Source: Cristatella mucedo (lineage: Eukaryota; Bryozoa; Phylactolaemata; Cristatellidae). Taken from it: DNA of 64,000 bases. The notes below the pieces were generated by a model. That model did no database searches. It saw only the letters and a program-made list of their open reading frames with translations, and was not told where the DNA came from. Position numbers and translations under genes: made by a program. Below, piece by piece: positions 557-64,000 of this stretch (positions are counted from its first letter, which is position 1; every line of letters starts with the position of its first letter). Location of the stretch: NCBI GenBank assembly GCA_009760855.2, contig WPIO01000021.1, forward strand, positions 2,954,001 through 3,018,000, in the 5' to 3' direction.

Positions 557-1784
557 CTGAAGCAGAAAGTACGCCTAGTAGCCGACCTCGCCGCGCAGTT
601 GTCATCAATGTGTGGAGAACCGTTCGCGGAGGCAATCTTGGAAGAAACTCTTTATTTGTGAGGGTGAATTAGCACAGCAGTCGGCCATGTCGACACGGTC
701 ACTTAAGCGTTTTTCTATAAATAATTTAACCTCGCATGTAAAGTCGCTAAAAGCTATTCACGCTTAGCCGCAGTTTCGGTATCGTTAGCCGCATATTCCT
801 CGCCCATTCGTCGACGATTCACGATTAATGACGATACTGTGATTCGTGTCAAGATTCTAAGAGTTAAGGAAAAAGTAACAAGGTCGAGCAAGTCCACGTA
901 ATGCAACTTACCAAGCAAAGAGAGCCGGCTGAATGTGCTGCTGTAAAAGATAGGTTCGTGAGAAGGACAAGCTGAACTCCAAAGCCCCGATTTGGCTGCT
1001 GGTGGTCAGGTGAGATAAGTTCACGCTTGAATACAGACTTACTTATGCAGCCCATTGACTAAAGTACGACTCATCCGTTTACTCAAAAAACTAGATTGCG
1101 TAATCACCTCCCGCATTAGGGAGGTCAAGATTCGCTTGGTTTTCTGCGGCACACTCACAATGAAGCATCTTCTTTGTACAAAACGTTTTTAGTCCTATCT
1201 GCTCGGCTATTTGGGGGGCCTTTGCTCTGCGAGTATTTTGAAACGCTTCGTTTTACTGAGCCCTCGCGAGAAGAAAACTGCACACCAGAATGTGCAGCCG
1301 GATACACTCTGCATTCATCCAGCAGCCGATTGATTGTGGGCGCTCGCTATGCACAGTCCAGCACCGAGCTCGTCATTGCCATTGGCTTCTAAAGCGACCC
1401 GATGCTGGCCGTTTTCCTGATCCCTAGATCCTACCGTCTAATTAGCACATTTACAGAATCAGGTACATTGAATGCACATTAATTGAGTTGAATTGAATTG
1501 GCCATGCCTTCATCGTGGGTGGCAAAGTTTCATGATTTCGCTCAAGAGCAACACGCAAAGAATTGAATAAGTTTGAGTCGTTTTCATAGCAGCATTCGTT
1601 TTAGGCTATCCTGTTCAAGCCAGTGCACAGGTGAAACGACGCAGGTGATTCCCGGTTTGCGTTTGATAGCGAACAACTCACATCTCATAAAATGAAGCCT
1701 TTATTTTGTGAACTCGAGATTTAAATTTAAAAATTTACATTGTAAAGACAGACATAATTCTAAGACAGGTCGTGCATAGACTGT
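557..1784. other. Intergenic stretch without recognisable gene
   Basis: No conserved coding region, RNA gene or clear repeat is seen here. Open frames are short and unrelated to known families. Confidence 0.5.
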
Positions 1785-2500
1785 ATTGCTTTCGTGACAT
1801 CTCGTCTCGACTTCTGCAACTCACTGCTTACTGGCCTACCAGCATGTGCGATCAGGCGATTGCAGCTGGTGCAAAACTCTGCAGCTAGGCTTGTCTGTCG
1901 TGAGCGTCGCAGTTGCCACATTACTCCACTTCTCGCCGACCTGCACTGGTTACCAGTCAAGCAACGGATTGACTTCAAGGTTTTGTCGCTCACTTTTAGG
2001 TCTCTTCATTCTATGGCTCCAACCTATCTTTCAGATATACTACCCTATCAGGCAAAGCATCGTACCACTCGCTTTTCGGAATCCAACAGTCTAGAAATAC
2101 CTCGTACAAACCTTAAATCCTTTGGAGACCGTGCATTTAGCTCGTATGCTCCCACAGCCTGGAACTCCCTCCCGACCTGCATCAGAACATCCCCTGACCT
2201 GACCACATTTAAAAGAAACTTAAAAACATACCTATTTAGGACAGCATTTAGTGGGTCCTTTTGATTCGTCCTCAATGTGCTTATGCGTGCTGACACTGTT
2301 CATGCTGCCACTAACCACATTTGCATGCTGACCCAGTGCATGTAACCCCTAACCATGTTATTCATTTTGTTTGTTTTTCAAGCATGATTTCACTTACTAT
2401 TCTATTGCGTATCACTTTGCAGCAAATGTGAAGCGCCTAGAGAGAGATTAAGTTCTCTGAGGGCGCTTTATCAAGTGCAATATTATTATTATTATATTGC
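1785..2500 (+). mobile_element. 5'-truncated LINE-A with open C-terminal ORF
   Basis: An open frame at 1794-2264 (156 codons) encodes the C-terminal end of a non-LTR retrotransposon ORF2. Its typical landmarks are [32 protein letters not shown] and AWNSLP. A 3' UTR follows, ending at about 2430-2500 with the hairpin AAGCGCC...GGGCGCTTT and an ATT-rich tail. The copy lacks endonuclease and reverse transcriptase, a typical result of 5' truncation during target-primed reverse transcription. The intact frame and close match to the copies at 52387-53067 and 62812-63582 suggest recent activity. The clade (CR1/L2-like) is inferred. Confidence 0.85.
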
Positions 2501-18500: not shown

Positions 18501-19692
18501 TTCTCATGGAGCTTATTGTGTCTTTTAGGCAGATGATGACATCGACCTGTTTGGGTCTGACGAGGAAGTCGACGAGGAGGCTGAACGCATTAAGGCAGAG
18601 CGTCTTAAGGAATATGCTGAAAAGAAAAGCAAAAAGCCCGCACTGATTGCCAAGTCGACTATTTTGCTTGATGTCAAACCATGGGACGATGAGACGGACA
18701 TGGCTGAACTGGAGAAGTGTGTCCGAAGTATCGAGATGGATGGGCTCCTCTGGGGTGCTTGTAAGTATGTCATTATAACTTCGACTGCTCTTAGTGTAGG
18801 CTGCCAGCTGGTACCATGAGAAAAACATTTAAGTGGTGTGCTGCTATAGATATTACTCTCCTTTGGATTATTTTAGCCTTTGGTGGTCTCTTATCCAGTT
18901 AACATCTTCGCTTATGGGGAGTGTTAGTTGATTTGCTATTCCAGCCAGACAGTGTGACTAATGCCATTGTCAATTTGGATGGAACAGTCTGAATCACTGA
19001 ATAGGTGGTAGGCAATAAAATTAGGTGTCAAAGTTGATGATAGTTTTTTGCATCTGCAAGCTACCCTGCCCCAGGAAATCTTGACACGATTGTCAGTAAT
19101 GCATGTTTTGAATGGCAATCAGAAGTGAAGTGTTGACCAGTAGTCATTCGGATGACACATTCGATTTGAATTGTATCCGATTACCTGTCGAGTTTTTATT
19201 CTCGTTCTGCAGACGTACATTATGTGGATCGTTAGTTGATGACTCGCTATATTGTTTAGGGCTGTAAACTCGAATAGCATTTTGTCGTTTTGGAATGTCT
19301 GTGACGTGTGTATATAATACTTTACTTCAAGACTAGCATATTTGTGTAATGATTTTTCTTCACTAAATTCCCATTTGGGTTGTATGGTATAATGGTGACA
19401 CTGTGCAACGTAGGGTTTGCACAATTATCGTCATATTTATACTTTTAGCCAAATTATTGCCTGTTGGCTATGGTATTAAGAAGCTGCAAATCGGCTGTGT
19501 GGTCGAGGATGCAAAGGTTGGCACGGATGATTTGGAAGAGAAGATTACCTCATTTGAAGACTTCGTGAGTATTCTTATATCTCTTGACTTTGCTGTCCTT
19601 AGATTGTATTGTGGTGTTTGCATGTTGCACTTACTATTTCCTATTTTTTGCAGGTTCAGAGCGTCGACATTGCTGCCTTCAACAAGATCTAA
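15373..19692 (+). CDS. EEF1D: eEF1B-delta, guanine nucleotide exchange factor of eEF1A (six exons)
   Basis: The spliced product has 265 residues, close to the roughly 280 of the usual animal short isoform. It reloads eEF1A with GTP in the cytosolic eEF1B complex. Exons are 15373-15504, 15758-15817, 18219-18437, 18529-18760, 19449-19564 and 19654-19692, all with GT-AG borders and matching phases. The N-terminus (ERIWFDK) is the family signature for gamma-subunit binding. A leucine zipper has leucines at residues 82, 89, 96 and 103, exactly seven apart. An acidic region ([12 protein letters not shown], residues 139-150) holds a CK2-type serine. The C-terminal exchange domain runs from about residue 175 to 265 and ends [11 protein letters not shown], the conserved catalytic tail. 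The zipper separates delta from beta. Intron 2 is stuffed with LINE fragments. The 3' UTR is very short (AATAAA at 19704). Confidence 0.96.
15758..15817 (+). CDS. EEF1D: EEF1D exon 2
   Basis: A 60-base phase 0 exon encodes residues 45-64 ([20 protein letters not shown]). It is flanked by the acceptor ATTTTAG and the donor GTTTGT. It is the small conserved helix before the zipper, as in animal homologues. Confidence 0.93.
16296..16652 (+). mobile_element. Degraded LINE-A fragment in EEF1D intron 2
   Basis: Scattered matches to the LINE-A C-terminal region are seen (CCTCGCCGACCTGCACTGGC, GGCTCCAGCCTACC). The 3' end AATGCCTAGAAAGAGACTGG with TACAAATGTATTATTATTAT follows. There are many frameshifts and internal deletions, so this is an old copy. 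Confidence 0.7.
17050..17850 (-). mobile_element. Degraded LINE-A fragment in EEF1D intron 2
   Basis: On the minus strand the order is LINE-A leader (17700-17830, related to GCTGGCAGAGCCAATTTTGA), C-terminal coding remnant (17240-17350) and 3' tail (AATAATAAAATATTTGTATA, plus-strand reading, at 17059). It is heavily diverged. With the plus-strand copy at 16296 it makes up half of the intron. Confidence 0.6.
18219..18437 (+). CDS. EEF1D: EEF1D exon 3 (leucine zipper)
   Basis: A 73-codon phase 0 exon, residues 65-137. It contains the zipper helix [20 protein letters not shown] and its continuation ARIASLEL, then a Thr/Ala/Pro-rich linker ending at KEE before the donor GTGAGC. Confidence 0.95.
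18529..18760 (+). CDS. EEF1D: EEF1D exon 4 (acidic region and start of GEF domain)
   Basis: Residues 138 to the first base of codon 215. It carries the acidic [12 protein letters not shown] segment, a lysine-rich hinge, then [16 protein letters not shown] of the exchange domain. The donor GTAAGT leaves one base, completed by exon 5 to a serine codon. Confidence 0.96.
19449..19564 (+). CDS. EEF1D: EEF1D exon 5 (GEF domain)
   Basis: It encodes [20 protein letters not shown] and the following FEDF block, the core of the EF1-GNE exchange domain. Acceptor ACTTTTAG and donor GTGAGT; 116 bases (2 + 38 codons). Confidence 0.97.
19654..19692 (+). CDS. EEF1D: EEF1D exon 6 (terminal)
   Basis: Twelve codons, [12 protein letters not shown], and TAA. 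The C-terminal peptide inserts into eEF1A in known eEF1B structures and is nearly invariant across eukaryotes. Confidence 0.96.
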
Positions 19693-27061: not shown

Positions 27062-37987
<10,926 letters not shown>

Positions 37988-45392: not shown

Positions 45393-45809
45393 CTAGGTCG
45401 CCTGGGCCGCGACGTTCGGCGGCAGCTTCGAGCCGATGGCTGGCGATGCCGAGCAGGCGAGGAGAAGGCGCGAGTACGGCGCTGCGTCGATGGCGCCGGC
45501 TGAGGCCGCTGCCTGGAATGTTGCAACGAACGAGCGCCTGGCGGTGTCGGATGGCAAGCGGAAGTAGAAGTCGAGCGCCGCTGTGAGAAACATGCGCTCG
45601 CCGGCGCCGTCCGTTCGGCCCATGCTGGCGACCACGTGCGGGAACATGGCGCGCAGCCACTGGTTGGCGGAGGCGCTCACAAAGAAGCAGGCGAGGCTCC
45701 AGAGCGCCATCGACAGCGGTGTGCGCTGTGTGAAGTTGCCAAGTGACAGCATCACCCAGTCCTGCACTAGCGGCAGCTCCTGCTGCACGACGATGCGATC
45801 CTCGAAGAC
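45393..45809 (-). CDS. HTT: HTT terminal exon
   Basis: It starts [20 protein letters not shown] after the acceptor CCACCAG and ends TAG at 45395. It contains [20 protein letters not shown] and FPHVVASMG, the most conserved block of the huntingtin C-terminus. The last 30 residues (Ala-rich) differ from vertebrates. Confidence 0.95.
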   Translation of the reverse strand, partial: VFEDRIVVQQELPLVQDWVMLSLGNFTQRTPLSMALWSLACFFVSASANQWLRAMFPHVVASMGRTDGAGERMFLTAALDFYFRLPSDTARRSFVATFQAAASAGAIDAAPYSRLLLACSASPAIGSKLPPNVAAQAT

Positions 45810-48800
45810 CTGGTGGGCGATTCGAGCGAGGGGCGCGGCCAATGAGAAATAGGATCGGCCGTGTGCGGCCGAATAGGCTCATCAAGCTACGGCCGCAGCA
45901 CCATGTGGCCGAGACCAGGCCAGCACAGATCCGCAAGCGCACGAGCGGGCAAATGCACGAGGATGTCTGCGCGAGTTAGACATGCGCACGACTGACAGTC
46001 GATGGCAAATGCCAGCTATTGGCGGTTTTGATGAACGAGTCGTGCACCATGGCGGTGCCGAGTCTAAGGAGGCTAACCTTGAACACAACACGGGCCAGTA
46101 GCTGTGGATGCGGTTGCTGGCTCGACAGGAACTCGCAAATAACTTTGTTCATCACGTCCTGAATGGTAAAGAAATCGCTGAGCAGCGTCGGCAGTAGCTG
46201 TGCGACCACCTGTGCTTCGTGCGGGTAGCCTTTCCGGATCCTGAAATTGGCAAACAGGGGTCACCAGTGGCACTTCACTCGGATTGCCTGATTGGAAGGA
46301 GGCGTTTCAAGTTTCCAACCTGACCGCGTGACATGATATGATTAAAGTGCGATGCATAGAAAAAGGGCACGAGCTAGTGTCGTGTCAAGGCAGCAGCAGG
46401 CAGCGATTAGAGGCAGACGAGAAAAAGCAGTGGTGAGGCACGTTACTCTAAATCAGCGGCTCTCAACCCCTTTGGGGGTCGAACGACCCTTTCACAGGGG
46501 TCGCCTAAGACCATCGGAAAACATGCATTTCCAATTTTGCACGCAATAATTTTATGGTTGGGGGTCGCCACAACATGAGGAAGTGTATTAAAGAGTCGCA
46601 GCATTAGGAGGTTGAGAACCACTGCTCTAGATGGATGGGTGGGGGCATCTTATGGTTAGCAAGTGAGGTTGTGTGTGTGCTTGAGTGTGTGCAGTGAGTG
46701 CAGTGAGAGCCTGACCACTCGCCCGCTCGGTCATAGCAACTGGTCATCGAGGGGGATGTGCCCAGGATTAAGCCTAGGAAGGGTGAGAACTTGACCTTGC
46801 CCAGAGCAGCAACTCATCAGAGGCCAAAAGAGAGGGCCGGCTGGCCATGTAGCCTTCTCGGATAGAGCCAATGTGGGCGGCACTGCCCACCCCTTTGCTA
46901 CAAGTCTACGGGTGTACATATCATCGTGCCTGCGCATGGAGCCTCTGATCGAGAGAGGGCTACAGGTGCCTCTGTCGCATCGCCTGCACCTGATGCCACC
47001 ACATCCATACCAAGCCTCGTCAATCTAATCGAGGGAGTGATTAAAAGATGAGGATCATGCCTGCACAGATATGCTCGCAAGACAGATATGCCTGCACATA
47101 TGGAGACATGAATCAGGTGGGGGTGGAGTGGGGGTGGTGGTGGTGGGGTGGGTGGGGCCTCCGAGCAGGGGTGAAAGCGTGAATGAGCGCAGACACACAA
47201 TAACATTCGCGCACACATTAACATGCACACTCGCAGATAACCCACAGACATCCAAAATTGGCTCAGTTTATGTACGGCAAAGAAAACAACTGGCAAAATC
47301 AACCTCAAAACAAAGTTACCAGTAATCCCTGGTTATGCCTGTGCAAGCAGGTTAGTGCTACCAACCTGTCAAACAGCACAGTGATCTGCTCCATGCGCGC
47401 AACAATGTCTCCTTCACTTCCGGCAAATGGTGTGCCGTGTTGGCGCTCACCGGCGGTGACGTCTCCTGGCTGAGCTGGCTGAGAAGTTGGCTCTGCACGG
47501 AAGCAGCAGACCAGACAATGGCTAACGCACAACAAGGAAGGGGGGTGGGGCGAGTAAATCACATTAAGCCGGGGAAGAGGGATGGGTGGAGGGGACTGGT
47601 GGGTCGGCTGACGAGCTAGAACAAAAGGTGCTGCAGCCATCGGCATGTGGCAAAGCAAAAGAAAAAAGAAGCAAAGGCAGGCCTGAGACTGAACTGCCTC
47701 TCATTTACATAGCAGCAGAAGAGCCTTTGTAGCCACCGGCCCGGCTCTTGCAGCAGGCAATACAGATTTGCTGCAATCCACTCCAATCCACTCCAATCCA
47801 CGATCTGAGCTGCCATGCGGTTCGGCTGGACAGGGAGAGCTTACGATGGAAGGGCTTCGTGGGATGTTTTGGAGGGTGTGTGTTGGGGGTGAAGTCGCAG
47901 CAAGTGTCCGACGACCTCTGCATGCCATCACTTGCCTGAATACATGCAAGACAGTAGCAGCCTCAGGGCCATCAGAGCGTGCTGCGGGTGCCGCTGGCTC
48001 AGCCTGCAACAAACACGACGCTCGCGCAAGTGAGGCGCCCGTTCTCTATCCGTCGGCTAAAGGCTCCCATCCGTGCCTACGAATAGCCGAGCCCAGCAGG
48101 ACGGCTGCCGGCGGCGGTCAGGTCGGGCAGCAGGGCAAGCACGAGAAGCAGGTCTGAACGCAGCAGCGAGATGGGGCGAGCAAGTTCGAGAAATCGCTCG
48201 CTCGACGCTCCGTGCTCTGAGCCGATGTTCCAGCACAGGCTCCAGGTGCCCTCCTCGGTGCCGTGTGGCCGGCCGGAGGGGAGCAACATCCACGGGAAAA
48301 TAGGGAAAATGGGGCACGAGCGAGTCAAGGGGCAAGGTAGCTAGCGATTATCGCAGACCTTGCCACAGCACCGTCACACGGAGTTACAGCGCCATGTCAC
48401 GCTGCAGCGTGGTGCCACACGGGACGAGGGCGGCCTGCTTTCACCTGTCGCAGGCTGACTTTGCGAGCATGTCTCGCTCGTCTGCACTGAGAAAGCCCGG
48501 CGTGACGACGAGACGTTCGAGCGAGCCGACGAGCACACCGAGGATGGGAGCAGTCATGTTCTCCTCCTGAGCATTCATCTTCTTAACGGCAACCTTAGAA
48601 AGGAGAACCACTGACTCACCTACTAGCACCAGGCACTGCAGAGAGGCAGTTCGGCTTAAAAGAGAGGAACATTTCGCAGTAACAAACACAGTCCAACTGA
48701 GCATCCAGTGTAAGGAAGTCTGATCACTGAGACACAGACTTAGCCCACACTTGTTTACTTGCCGACGATCAGCGGTTTTCACCAGAGCGGTGAGCCTCGA

Positions 48801-51800: not shown

Positions 51801-54438
51801 TAAGTGGTCTATCGCACAGGTAGGAAGACCTACGAGTAGTGAGTTACATATTTGTAGATGGGATGTCAAAAATGACATCAGCTTCACTGTGGTATTCTTA
51901 TATAAGCAGGCCAGGATTTTTGCAACGGTACGTAGCTGAAAGTAGGCACACGTGACTGAGGAGCTGATGTAGTCATCTAGAGAAAGGTCACTTTGGAACA
52001 TAACACCCAGCTGCATGCAGAAGCTACAAGAGATATGCTGGCCGAGCACATTTTGAGAGTGGCATTTCCAATTTCCCAGGAACACTAGGTTTTCCCATAG
52101 CTGGTAAGTTGGTTTTATTGTCTTTCAATTTGGGAAAGTCTGCTGCCATTCAATAATAATAATAATAATATTGCACTTGAAAAAGCGCCCTCAGAGAACT
52201 TAATCTCTTTCTAGGCGCTTTACATTTGCTGCAAAGTGATACGCAATAGAATAGTAAGTAAAATCATGCTTGAAAAACAAACAAAATGAATAACATGGTT
52301 AGGGGTTACATGCACTGGGTCAGCATGCAAATGTGGTTAGTGGCAGCATGAACAGTGTCAGCACGCATAAGCACATCGAGGACGAATCACAAGGACCCAC
52401 TAAATGCTGTCCTAAATAGGTATGTTTTTAAGTTTCTTTTAAATGTGGTCAGGTCAGGGGATGTTCTGATGCAGGTCGGGAGGGAGTTCCAGGCTGTGGG
52501 AGCATACGAGCTAAATGCACGGTCTCCAAAGGATTTAAGGTTTGTACGAGGTATTTCTAGACTGTTGGATTCCGAAAAGCGAGTGGTACGATGCTTTGCC
52601 TGATAGGGTAGTATATCTGAAAGATAGGTTGGAGCCATAGAATGAAGAGACCTAAAAGTGAGCGACAAAACCTTGAAGTCAATCCGTTGCTTGACTGGTA
52701 ACCAGTGCAGGTCGGCGAGAAGTGGAGTAATGTGACAACTGCGCAGCTCACGACAGACAAGCCTAGCTGCAGAGTTTTGCACCAGCTGCAATCGCCTGAT
52801 CGCACATGCTGGTAGGCCAGTAAGCAGTGAGTTGCAGAAGTCGAGACGAGATGTCACGAATGCATGGACCAACTTGGACGTGGTATCCTTATCTAAACAA
52901 GCCCTAATTTTAGCAATGTTATGAAGCTGAAAATAGGCTGATTTGACTGTGGAGCTGATGTGGTCGTCTAACGAGAGGTCGCTTTGGAATATGACACCTA
53001 GATTTCGAGCTGATGCAACTGGAGATATGCTGGCAGAGCCAATTTGACTCGTTTTGCTGACATTCAAGAAGGAATGTCAGCAAAACCTGCTGCACGGGAA
53101 TTAAGAGAGTTCGACATGCTGGATGGCAGGAAGGATGGAATGGAAGCACAAGCTTCTGTGGATCATCTGAATCACACTGACCAGCTGCAGGGAAGCAACC
53201 AACACACGGCACAGCCATTCATAAATATTCATTCAACAACACAAGATGCGTACTGGACTTCAGCACGACAGATGACAAGTGCGAAGCTGCACTGCATCCA
53301 GTGCCACCTTAGTGGCAAGCCCATCACGGTCGAGTCAAGCCTGGGAGGCTATGCGAGCGAGCACGACCTACGATCCGCACCCACAACGTGATGATCACAT
53401 CGGCAAGAGAGAGAGTATAAACTTGAAAAGAAGCAGACCATGCACTAATGTCTGCCATAAACCACAGGCCGTCTGGGCGAGGACACACAGCACGCTGAGT
53501 CAGTGGTGCTAACTCGTTAAGCACGCCAGCAAGTGTCTCGTTGTAGCATTCTATCAATGGCGACAGGTCGGAAGGGGGATTGAGCAGCAGCGGCGAAGAA
53601 GATATTTTCGCTCTGATAGCATCAGTGTAAAGGTTCTTGAGGTTTCGTAATTCATAGATAATTTTGGATGCGAAGGAGGGCACAGACTGTAGACTAAAAA
53701 GACTGAACGAGGTGTACAGATGAGCATAATTTGATAATAGTAGATGATAGCATACACTTGTGGGAGAATATTTGATCTACTGTCTGACCCTTGTTGTGAG
53801 TGGGGTCATGCAAATGAGCCACAACAGAAAATGAGTCAGTCAGTGCACGAAATTCGACACTTACGGCATCAGTTAAGTCGTCAAAAGGAATGTTAAACCA
53901 TCCATAACGAGGAAAGATCGATTTCTTACACAGAATAAAAATGAGATCACAGAAATCTGAGATAAAGGTGGACTTCATACCTGGGAGGGAGGGACGAATG
54001 ATTATTGCTACCACTGGCAGCTTGTTGTTGGAGGGACACGAGATTCGAAAGACTGCTTCAAAGGGACTGCACACGGTTTGAAATTGAGGGAGAAACGTGC
54101 GAATATGACGATTCATCCACCAGTTTTCCTTGATCTAGCATATGAAAGAATGAGAAACCTGTCTGTGTGGCATCGGTTATGGTCGGAAAGTTTGACAATT
54201 TCAGCCAGATCTCGATTAAGACGAGCAGGTCAAGACTGCCGTCCAAAATAATCTCATGCATTATTAAGGGTTTATTACACACTGAACAAGCATTCCAAAG
54301 GCAAGCGTTAAGATGGGACACCGGGGTTCTAGTAAGCCCGATGACCATTAAAGTTCCGAGTGATTCACAGCAGCTCTCTCTCTGTCTCACTGTCTCTCTG
54401 TCTCTGTCTCTCTCTCTCTGTCTCTCTCTCTCTGTCTC

Positions 54439-54521
<83 letters not shown>

Positions 54522-57500
54522 AGCCGATCGTGCAGGGTAGAACGAGACAATGCTCTTTGAATACCGAACACCGAACAAGCAGAGCTTCCGGCAACCGTGG
54601 TGGCAATGCCTAGGTTGTCCTTTGGAGAAACCCAATTCAAGGACCCTGGCAACAGCAATCCCATCAAGCAAAGCATTTGGATGACGATAGCAAAGTGATA
54701 ATAGGCATGCACGATTATACCTAATATACACGTTCATAGCAGTTGGCGAAACTAACGCTGCCATAATATGCATGTTCATAACAGTCGGCGATGCTGCCGG
54801 CTTTGTGGGTGCGGCTGTTAGCGGCTACATGCTCCTTGCGGATGTTACCACCAAACTTCTGGAATGCTTTTATGCAGCACCTGTAAAGTGCCTAGAGAGT
54901 AATTAAGTTCTCTGAGGGCACTATTCAAATGTATTATTATCATTATTATGTAAACAGGCACGTGCATTTCTTAAGGACTACGAACAAGAAACAGACCAGC
55001 TTTAAGCAATGAGCTTCCAGGCACTAATTTTTTCATCAAGTAGCCACTACCAATGCATGCCAAGAAACCATCCGGTCAATCCAGGGTGATTCTTCAGCCT
55101 TTTGCTCTCACACTAATGCCGGAACTGATACACACGACCTTTGCCTGGCATTAGCTGAACGTGAGTGCGAATGAGTCTATTAGTCAGAAGAGAATGACAA
55201 TTAGGTCGGATAGGGGACTATACAATCTGGTGGCTGCTCCGGCAAGCTTGCATGTATCTCTAGGTACACCGCATGAGTATCCGCGAGACAGAGGTTACCT
55301 GTCCAGAGCATCAAGCTGCTGGCGTGCACTCTCATTCACGACCGGTAGCAGCATTCGCACGATGTCTGGATCTCTGGTGCTGATGAGGTAGATGCTGCCG
55401 GTCAGGGCACTCATCTTAGTGGGAACGTGGTTACTTTTCAGTGCCTGCTCGATGACCTTGGTCAGCCTCTCCTTGCCTGCGCCATCCTGCACCAGAGAGA
55501 TGCATTCTATGATTTCTTCACAAGAATGCAACGAGTCATCAACAAAACTGAACAAAAACAAATGTAGCAAGTATCCCATTCTGGATCTACGCCCCCCGAA
55601 GCAAATGCCGACCTTACATACTTTTCTAGCAAGAAACGATCGAGCAGCAGATCTAGGCCCGCTAGAGGCCGGCAGCCTTTTCGCTTCAGTCGTTGGGCTG
55701 GCCCATTGAACGACAGAGAGACATTGTGTCTTCCACGTCTCCTACTTCTGATGAGCACTTACTCGAACACACCGGTCAGCAAACCCAACCGTGCCTGACG
55801 TGGACAGTCTGCTGAGGCTGCTTTGGCAGGCAAATGGTCGGCAGCCGGCTTTCTCTGCTTAGCTTTGTTGGTCGCTGCCAATTGGCCACGAAGGCCGGTT
55901 TCAACCGGTCGTCTGCAGGCAAGAGACAAAGCTGCGATTCGCACCAGCCTCGGTCCACGGGCAGCCTCGGTCCAAGGGCAGCCTCGGTCCAAGGGCAGCC
56001 TCGGTCCACGGGCAGCCTCGGTCCACGGGCAGCCTCGGTCCACGGGCAGCCTCGGTCCACGGGCAGCCTCGGTCCACGAGCAGCCTCGGTCCACGAGCAG
56101 CATCGCTCGGAAAGTAGGAGGAAGGCTTGCCGAGGCATCGCTGGGGGGGGGGAGTCTGCCCTCTCTTGACGATTGCCTGCATTTCCTCCACTCGCTGTGG
56201 TGTCACCCTAAGCTTATTGGAATTTTTGCCACTGACTCCACGTTCGACCACGGACAGCAAGCAGTGCGCATCCCTTCTCACACTGACCCCTCAAAATGCA
56301 AGCAAAGTTAGGCTCCGAATACGTGGAAAGCAAGCGCAATTTCGCAAAGGTACACAGACTGCACACAGCTCGTGCTTAAATACCAGCATGATCAGTTGTG
56401 CACTTACCTACGGACATATAAATTACTGATAAGGGAAAGCAACAGGGAGAGTCACAGCACTGCAGTGCTAACATTTGAATGCTTCGTGCATTCATGTGCA
56501 GCATCTATGGGCATGGGTGGCGAATCCATCACTTATGCTTGAAGAAGCTCAGTGCCTTTTACACTCAAAGCCGATCTATCCCATCACACCACAGTATAGT
56601 GTTGGCACAACAAGGTAGGAGACAGGAAGCTATTGCATCTTACAACAACAAGGCCTAGCACCTCAAATAAATTAAAAAACACATAAGGGGCTAGAGCTCT
56701 TTGAATATGCCATCTTTCTTAGTAAACTTAACCTTCAGCCTGCTAAGTAGATCAAGCAGGCTTGGGTTCCTTCGAACACTCCAGCTTGCTGCGGAATAGG
56801 AGCAGAGCAGTTAGAGAATAAATACAGCACTTGCACAATGTTCACCGGTCAAATGCACATTCTTATTACTAACTTCGGCAGCAGCAGCAGCACGTATAGA
56901 AGAGCTACAAACATGGTGACTGCTAGGCATGTGCAGGTGAAGAATTCAGAGGTAAACAGATGAATCAAACCCAAGGAAAAGTTCAAAGCCTTGCAAATAA
57001 AATCAGCTGGAATAGCAAGCGGACAAAAAAGTGGTTGCACAGCCTTCAGCGCTGTGACTAAACATGTATAATTATTATTATTCTTACTAAAAACTAGCTA
57101 CACCAGAAGGCTTGACTCGGTACCATCGCAGAGAAGTCTGCAGGCACATGTCAGCACATAACCTACCAGCTTCGATGACGACGAGGACATCACAGCAGCA
57201 GAAGACTTGGCAAGCCCGTGAATTATGTATTGGCCTGTCAATTCATCTTCTGCATAGTGGCTCTTCTGCAAGTTGCTAAACACATCGTACATCCACTCGT
57301 ACTGTCTGGTAGAGACGAAAAGATCGGATAAGATAGTCAACTGCAATGACAAGCGTACAAAGACACGGGTGCAGTCCAGCACACAGCACGGCTCGCGTAA
57401 CTGCACGACGTAAACGAACGTGACGAAGCGCGCGGCAAGCTACGAGAGCCCATACAAGTCGTGCACAACCCGCTGAGATGCACGGCGGGCAAGGGCAAAT

Positions 57501-62645: not shown

Positions 62646-63625
62646 TAATAATAATAATAATATTGCACTTGATAAAGCGCCCTCAGAGAACTTAATCTCT
62701 TTCTAGGCGTTTTACATCTGCTGCAAAGTGATATGCAATCGAATAGTAAGTAAAATCATGCTTGAAAAACAAACAAAATGAATAATATGGTTAGGGGTGA
62801 CATGCACAGGGTCAGCATGCAAATGTGGTTAGTGGCAGCATGCACAGTGTCAGCACGCATAAGCACATCAAGGACGAATCACAGGGACCCACTAAATGCT
62901 GTCCTAAATAGGTTGTTTTTAAGTTCCTTTTAAATGTGGTCAGGTCAGGGGATGTTCTGACGCAGGTCGGGAGGCAGTTCCAGGCTTTGGGAGCATGCGA
63001 ACTAAATGCACGGTCTCCAAAGGATTTAAGGTTTGCACGAGGTATTTCTAGACTGTTGGATTCCAAAAAGCGGGTGGTACGATGCTTGGCCTGATGGGGT
63101 AGTATATCTGAAAGATAGGCTGGAGCCATAGAATGAAGAGACCTAAAGGTGAGCGACAAAACCTTGAAGTCAATCCGTTGCCTCACTGGTAGCCAGTGCA
63201 GGTCGGCGAGAAGTGGAGTAATGTGGCAACTGCAACGCTCACGACAGACAAGCCTAGCTGCAGAGTTTTGCACCAGCTGCAATCGCCTGATCGCACATGC
63301 TGGTAGGCCAGTAAGCAGTGAGTTGCAGAAGTCGAGACAGGATGTCACGAATGCATGGACCAACTTGGACGCGGTAGCCTTATCTAAACAGGCCCTAATT
63401 TTAGCAATGTTATGAAGTTGAAAATAGGCAGCTTTGACTGTGGAACTAATGTGGTCGTCTAACGAGAGGTCGCTTTGGAATATGACACCTAGATTTCGAG
63501 CTGATTCAGCTGGAGATATGCTGGGAGAGCCAATTTTGAAAGTCAGCCTTTCCAATCTCTGAATCACACTGGGTTTGCCCATAACTAGTAAGTTAGTTTT
63601 ATCATCGTTTAGTTTTAGAAAATTT
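62646..63625 (-). mobile_element. Young LINE-A inserted in LINE-B
   Basis: The minus-strand open frame 63582-62812 (256 codons) starts MGKPSVIQRLERLTFKIGSP, includes [20 protein letters not shown] and runs through the C-terminal domain. The 3' UTR, hairpin and (AAT)n (62643-62663) follow. GGGTAA flanks both ends (62640-62645 and 63626-63631), a likely target site duplication. The open frame is the longest LINE-A frame in the window. Confidence 0.9.
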
Positions 63626-63630
63626 GGGTA

Positions 63631-64000
63631 AGAACTTCGCTCTGTATCTGTTGATCAATCGACAGCCATCCTAGCTCTTTTAGCAAAGGAGACACAAGGT
63701 CAAACCTCTGGGATTTGAAAAACTAGCCTTGCAGCCATATTCATAGCCAGTTGCAGTGGCCTAGTGGCTTTTTCTGGTGGCTCAGCCAATATGGAATTAC
63801 AATAATCTAGCCAAGACAGAACTAAGGAGATAGTTAAATTTTTTGCAAGCCACCGTGGAAGACAGTTCCTAATCTTGGATAGAGAGCAGACGTGATGGGT
63901 AGCTGTGGAAGCAGTCTTCTTAACGAAGCTTACAAAATTTGAGCAGCTGTCTAAGACGACACCTAAATTCTGAGCACATGGTGATGATGACACAACAGCG
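63631..64000 (-). mobile_element. LINE-B copy, 5' half (runs off window)
   Basis: The minus-strand frame 63993-63700 encodes AQNLGVVLDS, LPRWLAKNLTISLVLSWLDY and LQLAMNMAARLV. It aligns with the region just upstream of the 62434-62616 part, so both halves were one copy. Confidence 0.85.

Follow-up and report, generated by a model that had tools for sequence, protein, structure and literature searches.

An intron of the huntingtin (HTT) gene in an invertebrate genome carries a short element that is very probably a dead copy of a SPIN/URR1-type MITE from the Buster branch of hAT transposons, a judgement that covers jointly the identity of the element, its sideways entry into the host lineage and its spread in trans. 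The family to which the copy belongs, its ends and target site duplications (TSDs), a full-length relative with a broken transposase, a decay of ~5-10% and a close likeness to mouse DNA are all observed. SPIN elements in invertebrates (Rhodnius, Biomphalaria) have already been published, and the finding probably adds a host to a phenomenon that was described before.

A hAT element between huntingtin exons

The window analysed here, a stretch of 64,000 nucleotides, contains at 46454-46624 (+ strand) a 171-bp non-autonomous hAT element (MITE) with 15-bp terminal inverted repeats (TIRs) and a 7/8 target duplication, and these coordinates proved exact to the base. The 5′ TIR CAGCGGCTCTCAACC (46454-46468, +) and the 3′ TIR CAGTGGTTCTCAACC (46610-46624, -) match at 13 of 15 positions, and the 8-bp duplications CTCTAAAT (left, 46446-46453) and CTCTAGAT (right, 46625-46632) agree at seven of eight, which confirms the position, the imperfect 15-base TIRs and the 8-base near-duplication of the original prediction. 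A repeat search returned a 22-nt inverted pair at the element ends, 82% complementary, that takes in part of the flanks. The motif GGTCGNNYGACC gives three matches in the window against 0.14 expected, two of them for a palindrome at 46477 read on both strands and one at 34118. Relative to its family, the window copy has a deletion of ~15 bp adjacent to the 5′ TIR (family sequence CAACCTGTGGGTCGCGACCCC; approximate junction 46464-46471), a loss that the original prediction had not noted. It retains a 5′ subterminal block GGGGGTCGAACGACCCTTTCACAGGGGTCGCCTAAGACCATCGGAAAACA (46474-46523, +), which in its consensus form corresponds to one mouse Ate1 primer and to the mouse Kcnq1ot1 and Il1b primers, and a 3′ block (46558-46624, +), whose 68-base consensus form agrees at 58 positions with a copy in a mouse Adh5 intron. 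The element exceeds chance because its sequence recurs across the 572-Mb genome, with reversed controls at zero.

Three minus-strand matches to human HTT are collinear: the C-terminal exon at 45453-45776 (human residues 3031-3134, best E 1.8e-25), an exon downstream of the element at 46078-46233 (residues 2969-3020, best E 3.3e-16; 34/52 residues identical) and a weakly matching exon upstream of it at 55325-55492 (residues 2756-2812 in 6x9o_A numbering; the best chain gives E 0.0011 and chain 6x9o_A E 0.0044). The element lies between the last two matches, which supports the predicted setting in a huntingtin intron. A candidate HTT exon immediately upstream of the element (47365-47451, -) was recognised by eye only and gave no database match on its own. 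The EEF1D gene named in the original prediction is also confirmed (18532-18777, E 8.1e-37).

Family structure, target sites and decay

The genome searched comprises 572 Mb in 688 contigs, and the window lies in the contig labelled C133. A DNA search with the element listed at least 41 matches, with 40 of 2,181 first-look candidates scored; the aligned set consists of the 40 that score best against the window copy, that copy included, and leaves out the much weaker 41st. At up to two mismatches, the genome contains 568 places that match a 37-mer near the family 3′ end and 877 that match a CpG-free 29-mer, 139 of the latter exactly, with reversed controls at zero in both cases. The further copies for which the original prediction proposed a search thus form a large dispersed family. 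The 40-copy consensus is 187 bp long, beginning CAGCGGTTCTCAACCTGTGGGTCGCGACCCCTTTGGGGGTCGAACGACCC... and ending ...GCATTAGGAAGGTTGAGAACCACTG.

The 8-bp flanks of the 40 copies are identical in 9, match at ≥7/8 positions in 26 and at ≥6/8 in 29, compared with 0.3%, 3.2% and 12%, respectively, when flanks are cross-paired between different copies. The remaining 11 of 40, with fewer than six matching positions, were all kept in the denominator; they include the window copy, which automatic end placement scored in error at 1/8 (true value 7/8), and three copies (L013, L032 and L035) whose ends look misplaced by eye. The family TSD consensus is CTCTAGAG, with T at position 4 in 33/40 left and 36/40 right flanks and A at position 5 in 34/40 and 35/40. 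The predicted preference for TCTAGA targets is borne out over the 40 copies. The available text of PMC3499496 gives nnnTAnnn as the consensus of TcBuster target duplications and assigns SPIN to the Buster family. The 8-bp consensus of the present family follows that rule. The copies have the hallmarks of MITEs, being short, non-coding and numerous, with TIRs, TSDs and ends in common with a longer transposase-bearing element.

Mean divergence of the 40 copies from their consensus is 6.0%, or 4.9% outside CpG, values that are probably too low because the copies were chosen by similarity to the window copy. Poisson fits to the mismatch classes, which assume a single age for all copies, give 8.3% decay and ~1,545 ungapped copies from the 29-mer, and 9.4% decay and ~1,746 ungapped copies from the 37-mer. 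Transposase-bearing relics show 8-10% decay per lineage.

Likeness to mouse and rodent sequence

SPIN elements have 8-bp TSDs around TCTAGA and a ~3-kb autonomous form with MITE satellites. The SPIN (SPACE INVADERS) group takes in the SPIN_NA MITEs and, in rodents, URR1. Five mouse fragments that resemble the present family, most of them in print through chance choices of primer, came to light in a sequence search of paper texts. They are two Ate1 primers (PMC2767504), one primer each for Kcnq1ot1 (PMC6221546) and the Il1b promoter (PMC10570371), and a long printed stretch of an Adh5 (FDH) intron (PMC8376875). On our reading these fragments lie in URR1/SPIN copies, which the printed passages do not say. 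Against the 187-bp consensus, the Ate1 primers match at 18/19 (one base lies outside) and 18/20 positions, the Kcnq1ot1 primer at 19/20, the Il1b primer at 17/20 and the Adh5 intron copy at 58/68, whereas the highest scores after shuffling the consensus 300 times by mononucleotides were 14, 15, 14, 13 and 33, respectively. The TIR CAGYGGTTCTCAACC and the subterminal blocks are in this way matched by mouse sequence printed in four papers. A Vps18 primer (PMC3418201) was dropped from the set as unrelated. The original prediction had turned on an identity better than that of unrelated hAT MITEs; the 58/68 match stands well above the 33 reached in shuffles, a comparison with chance only.

A 34-mer absent from the window copy, a putative stretch of the rodent URR1 interior, occurs at 46 places in the genome (≤3 mismatches; 2 perfect, reversed control 0). 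A search of paper texts for the 34-mer or other interior sequence found no printed source. The predicted SPIN/URR1-type identity is supported through the mouse fragments and, more tentatively, through this putative interior stretch. Terminal similarity alone could overstate kinship, as the mouse fragments lie within termini that Buster elements are reported to share, and part of the mouse match may reflect functional constraint on the ends. The 34-mer begins ~81 bp inside the family 3′ end, and part of it still falls within the outermost 106 bp. In the available text of PMC4298943, similarity among Buster elements is reported over ~106 bp of their termini.

Longer relatives and transposase remnants

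With 150 of 295 candidates scored, a generic C-terminal peptide of Buster type has at least 67 matches in the genome, and the five best reach 52-56% identity; one transposase match (C5:384992-385174) lies 262 bp from a 34-mer match. Longer forms were examined at five transposase places and at 10 of the 46 places with the 34-mer. The most complete is L077, in which the family 5′ end (88.4%) and 3′ end (88.9%) stand 2,956 bp apart and enclose transposase pieces with a hAT-type C-terminus, interrupted by stops and frameshifts. This spacing agrees with the ~2.9-kb length of the autonomous SPIN/URR1 element. The flanks of L077, GGTCAGTG and CTCTAGCA, do not match and establish no TSD. A 1,123-bp derivative (L075) retains the transposase C-terminus between identical flanking duplications CACTAAAT. 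Among the ten shorter 34-mer loci, six (L080, L084, L086, L087, L088 and L089) have both ends, 314-352 bp apart, L081 and L082 have the 3′ end only, L083 extends beyond the sequence examined and L085 is truncated in its 3′ portion. We note in L080, L083, L084 and L085 an imperfect palindrome of the type GACCATCGGAAA...TTTCCGATGGTC followed by TTAGGAACCGA, of which the short MITE consensus retains the left part only.

The four other transposase relics are 82-85% identical to L077 in pieces >600 bp and 78-86% in shorter pieces. The autonomous transposase that the original prediction suggested looking for is represented by a relative of ~3 kb, but all five copies read are broken. The C-terminal piece reached only E 0.13 against Pfam PF05699, missing the cut-off, and the N-terminal piece, BED-like by eye, matched no Pfam zinc-finger family and no solved structure. 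A search of paper texts for a printed transposase sequence found nothing. The commonest hAT family in the genome is another one, with at least 62 PF05699 matches at E <1e-16 among 138 listed (150 of 766 candidates scored). Its transposase was rejected as the mobilising enzyme, the exact sequence CAGYGGYTCTCAAC being found in 0 of 20 loci that span 1.5 kb either side of the C-terminal domain only.

Host of the element

The host is a protostome, probably a lophotrochozoan, as judged from mitochondrial code and gene order, so the original prediction was right to place the element in an invertebrate. A 21-kb contig (C688) is mitochondrial, and its COX1 reads as expected only with AGR as serine (11 codons), AAA as lysine (2 codons, each at a conserved lysine position) and ATA as methionine (12 codons). 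This code excludes vertebrates, tunicates, echinoderms, flatworms and cnidarians. A lamprey, which the appearance of the LINEs and of HTT had suggested as host, is rejected because COX1 requires AGR as serine. The genes nd1-nd6-cob-nd4L-nd4-nd5 follow one another on one strand, an arrangement known as a lophotrochozoan block that differs from those known in pulmonate snails, arthropods and amphioxus. Pfam identified nd5, nd4, nd4L, cob, nd3, atp6, cox3, cox2 and a protein of proton-antiporter type that is assigned to nd2. No Pfam match was obtained for the nd6 frame, and nd1 was recognised by eye. A molluscan haemocyanin domain had no match in the genome and none in the control genomes either, so its absence is not shown.

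Probable horizontal transfer and competing explanations

Horizontal transfer is much the best explanation for the likeness of this noncoding DNA to mouse, and from the sequence comparisons we hold it, jointly with SPIN/URR1 identity and spread in trans, to be highly probable, because the noncoding consensus shares 85% of its positions with a single, eroded copy in mouse, the family has itself decayed by ~5-10%, and a conserved exon of HTT differs from its human counterpart at 18 of 52 residues. Set side by side, 58 of 68 noncoding bases are shared with the mouse copy and 34 of 52 residues of the HTT exon are identical, a comparison of bases with protein residues. This disparity points strongly towards the transfer proposed in the original prediction. 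On this account, an autonomous SPIN/URR1-type element of ~3 kb would have entered an ancestor of the host protostome, and internally deleted derivatives that retained ~90 bp at the 5′ end and ~80 bp at the 3′ end would have been moved in trans by cut-and-paste into nTCTAGAn-like targets, giving 8-bp duplications. The derivatives may have spread to an estimated 1,500 or more copies before the transposase copies decayed, and the family is presumably now silent. Scans of viral and prokaryotic contigs for exact family patterns gave 0 matches, so no vector is indicated.

The main alternative by type of element is that a Buster-type element distinct from SPIN was transferred independently and that its constrained ends merely resemble SPIN ends. 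The middle of the short MITE, GCATTTCCACATTTTGCACAC, differs from the middle known for URR1, as such an origin would lead one to expect. The available text of PMC4298943 adds that other Buster elements, Buster1 and Buster2, have moved horizontally in a planarian, a strepsipteran, a triatomine, a butterfly and a bat, that terminal similarity extends across Buster elements, and that the subterminal motif TGGGTCGCG, also present in this family, is named for Buster1. Because that motif is common to Buster1 and the N-terminal transposase piece shows no Pfam zinc finger, our estimate for this origin rises slightly and that for a SPIN/URR1-type element falls slightly. Even so, a distinct Buster element seems improbable: the Buster1 and Buster2 TIRs given in the same text (CAGGGCTTCTTAAAC and CAGGGGTGGCCAACCT; PMC4298943) differ at several positions from the CAGCGGTTCTCAACC of this family. 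A mouse Ate1 primer matches the family at all but one of 19 positions. The putative rodent interior 34-mer, which starts ~81 bp inward from the 3′ terminus, recurs at 46 places.

Vertical descent from an element of the protostome-vertebrate common ancestor has nothing specific in its favour beyond functional constraint on transposon ends, which could slow change, and we consider it very improbable. Over the protostome-vertebrate span noncoding DNA would be saturated, and degenerate non-autonomous copies cannot preserve sequence; descent is disfavoured on these grounds, and also by copies that stand ~5-10% from their own consensus beside a conserved HTT exon in which 18 of 52 residues differ from human. 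Contamination or an assembly artefact, such as rodent DNA in the assembly, has next to no probability in our assessment. The 40 copies are spread over numerous contigs, the majority of megabase length, with differing flanks and mostly matching target duplications; they share one MITE form decayed by ~5-10%, and the window copy lies within a gene of invertebrate coding divergence. An assembly or contamination artefact would have undone the original prediction; a family dispersed over many contigs with target duplications is not an artefact of one locus. Entry of a SPIN/URR1-type element by horizontal transfer is compatible with movement in the other direction, from an invertebrate such as this host into vertebrates, or into both from a third party, which concerns direction only and which we regard as possible but somewhat doubtful. 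The present data do not polarise the transfer, nothing decisive speaks against such a course, and SPIN or SPIN-like elements have been reported in a snail and a bug in the available text of PMC5440852 and PMC11614815.

Relation to known SPIN and Buster elements

The present family resembles SPIN/URR1 in its TIR and subterminal blocks (through the mouse fragments), its TCTAGA-centred TSD, its ~3-kb autonomous form accompanied by MITEs, the putative interior 34-mer and its cross-phylum distribution. It is unlike SPIN/URR1, as compared through those fragments and the 34-mer, in that the common MITE of the host is short (187-bp consensus) and has a middle of its own. Repeated SPIN transfer is among the clearest cases of DNA movement between animal phyla, with route and direction unsettled. 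Gilbert et al. 2010 reportedly also found SPIN in a pond snail. An invertebrate genome with many MITEs and the remains of an autonomous element offers datable material for the direction and timing of transfer. Nothing noticed at the single insertion in the HTT intron hints at a function.

A SPIN-like hAT element in Biomphalaria glabrata reaches ~1,000 copies with significant identity to SPIN, and no intact transposases were detected among the DNA transposons of that snail, according to the available text of PMC5440852. By description, the present family is similar in its probably lophotrochozoan host, its high copy number and, among the copies read, its lack of an intact transposase. It differs in the mitochondrial order nd1-nd6-cob-nd4L-nd4-nd5 of its host, which is not the order known from such snails. 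In Rhodnius prolixus, SPIN is explained by horizontal transfer (PMC11614815, citing Gilbert et al. 2010), with <5 SPIN copies in piRNA clusters, and its four transferred families, taken as a group, share at most ~98.1% identity with tetrapod elements (available text of PMC11614815). That case, too, is one of SPIN reaching an invertebrate by horizontal transfer, but Rhodnius is a blood-feeding insect and the present family is more decayed. Buster1 and Buster2 are likewise Buster hAT elements with MITEs (in Buster1 alongside autonomous partners) and with cross-phylum transfer, and Buster1 carries TGGGTCGCG, but their TIRs differ from those of the present family (available text of PMC4298943).

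Within the literature surveyed, largely titles and abstract openings, no other lophotrochozoan SPIN case was noticed, and one may exist in print. The chances seem to us evenly poised that SPIN independently invaded a lophotrochozoan lineage other than the reported snails and left this family there, with ~1,500-2,000 copies and a decayed autonomous master. Were this so, the SPIN wave would have reached a further major animal lineage, and there would be another lophotrochozoan point from which to trace the route and direction of transfer.

Other features of the window and host genome

The EEF1D exon in the window (18529-18819, +) covers the acidic region and the beginning of the exchange domain, and a frame of the lipid-droplet associated hydrolase (LDAH) type lies at 37043-37987 (+; PF10230, E 1.6e-47). 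A 17-bp unit, CAGCCTCGGTCCACGGG, is repeated in tandem at 55945-56105 (9.5 copies, 97% match). Repeated frames at 1764-2264 (+), 52387-53076 (-) and 62812-63654 (-) have an 18-residue stretch in common and appear LINE-like by eye; the two tested had no Pfam match.

Elsewhere in the genome, the commonest hAT family mentioned above, which is ZBED-like by eye and apparently recent (L055-L074; C676:2092176 and others), includes several open frames of ~640 amino acids, and its domain region is near-identical across 20 loci. The mitochondrial contig has a 4.2-kb stretch between nd3 and nd1 (C688:10644-14840), and nd2 and cox2 lie on the opposite strand, indicating a rearranged mitochondrial genome. 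ARAGORN, run under the bacterial code, detected no tRNA. Vitellogenin exons, for which an in-frame query returned nothing among solved structures, are duplicated: Vitellogenin-N exons at C332:3389033-3392341 and 3488862-3492170 (L042 and L043) lie ~100 kb apart and have the same translations in the stretch compared.
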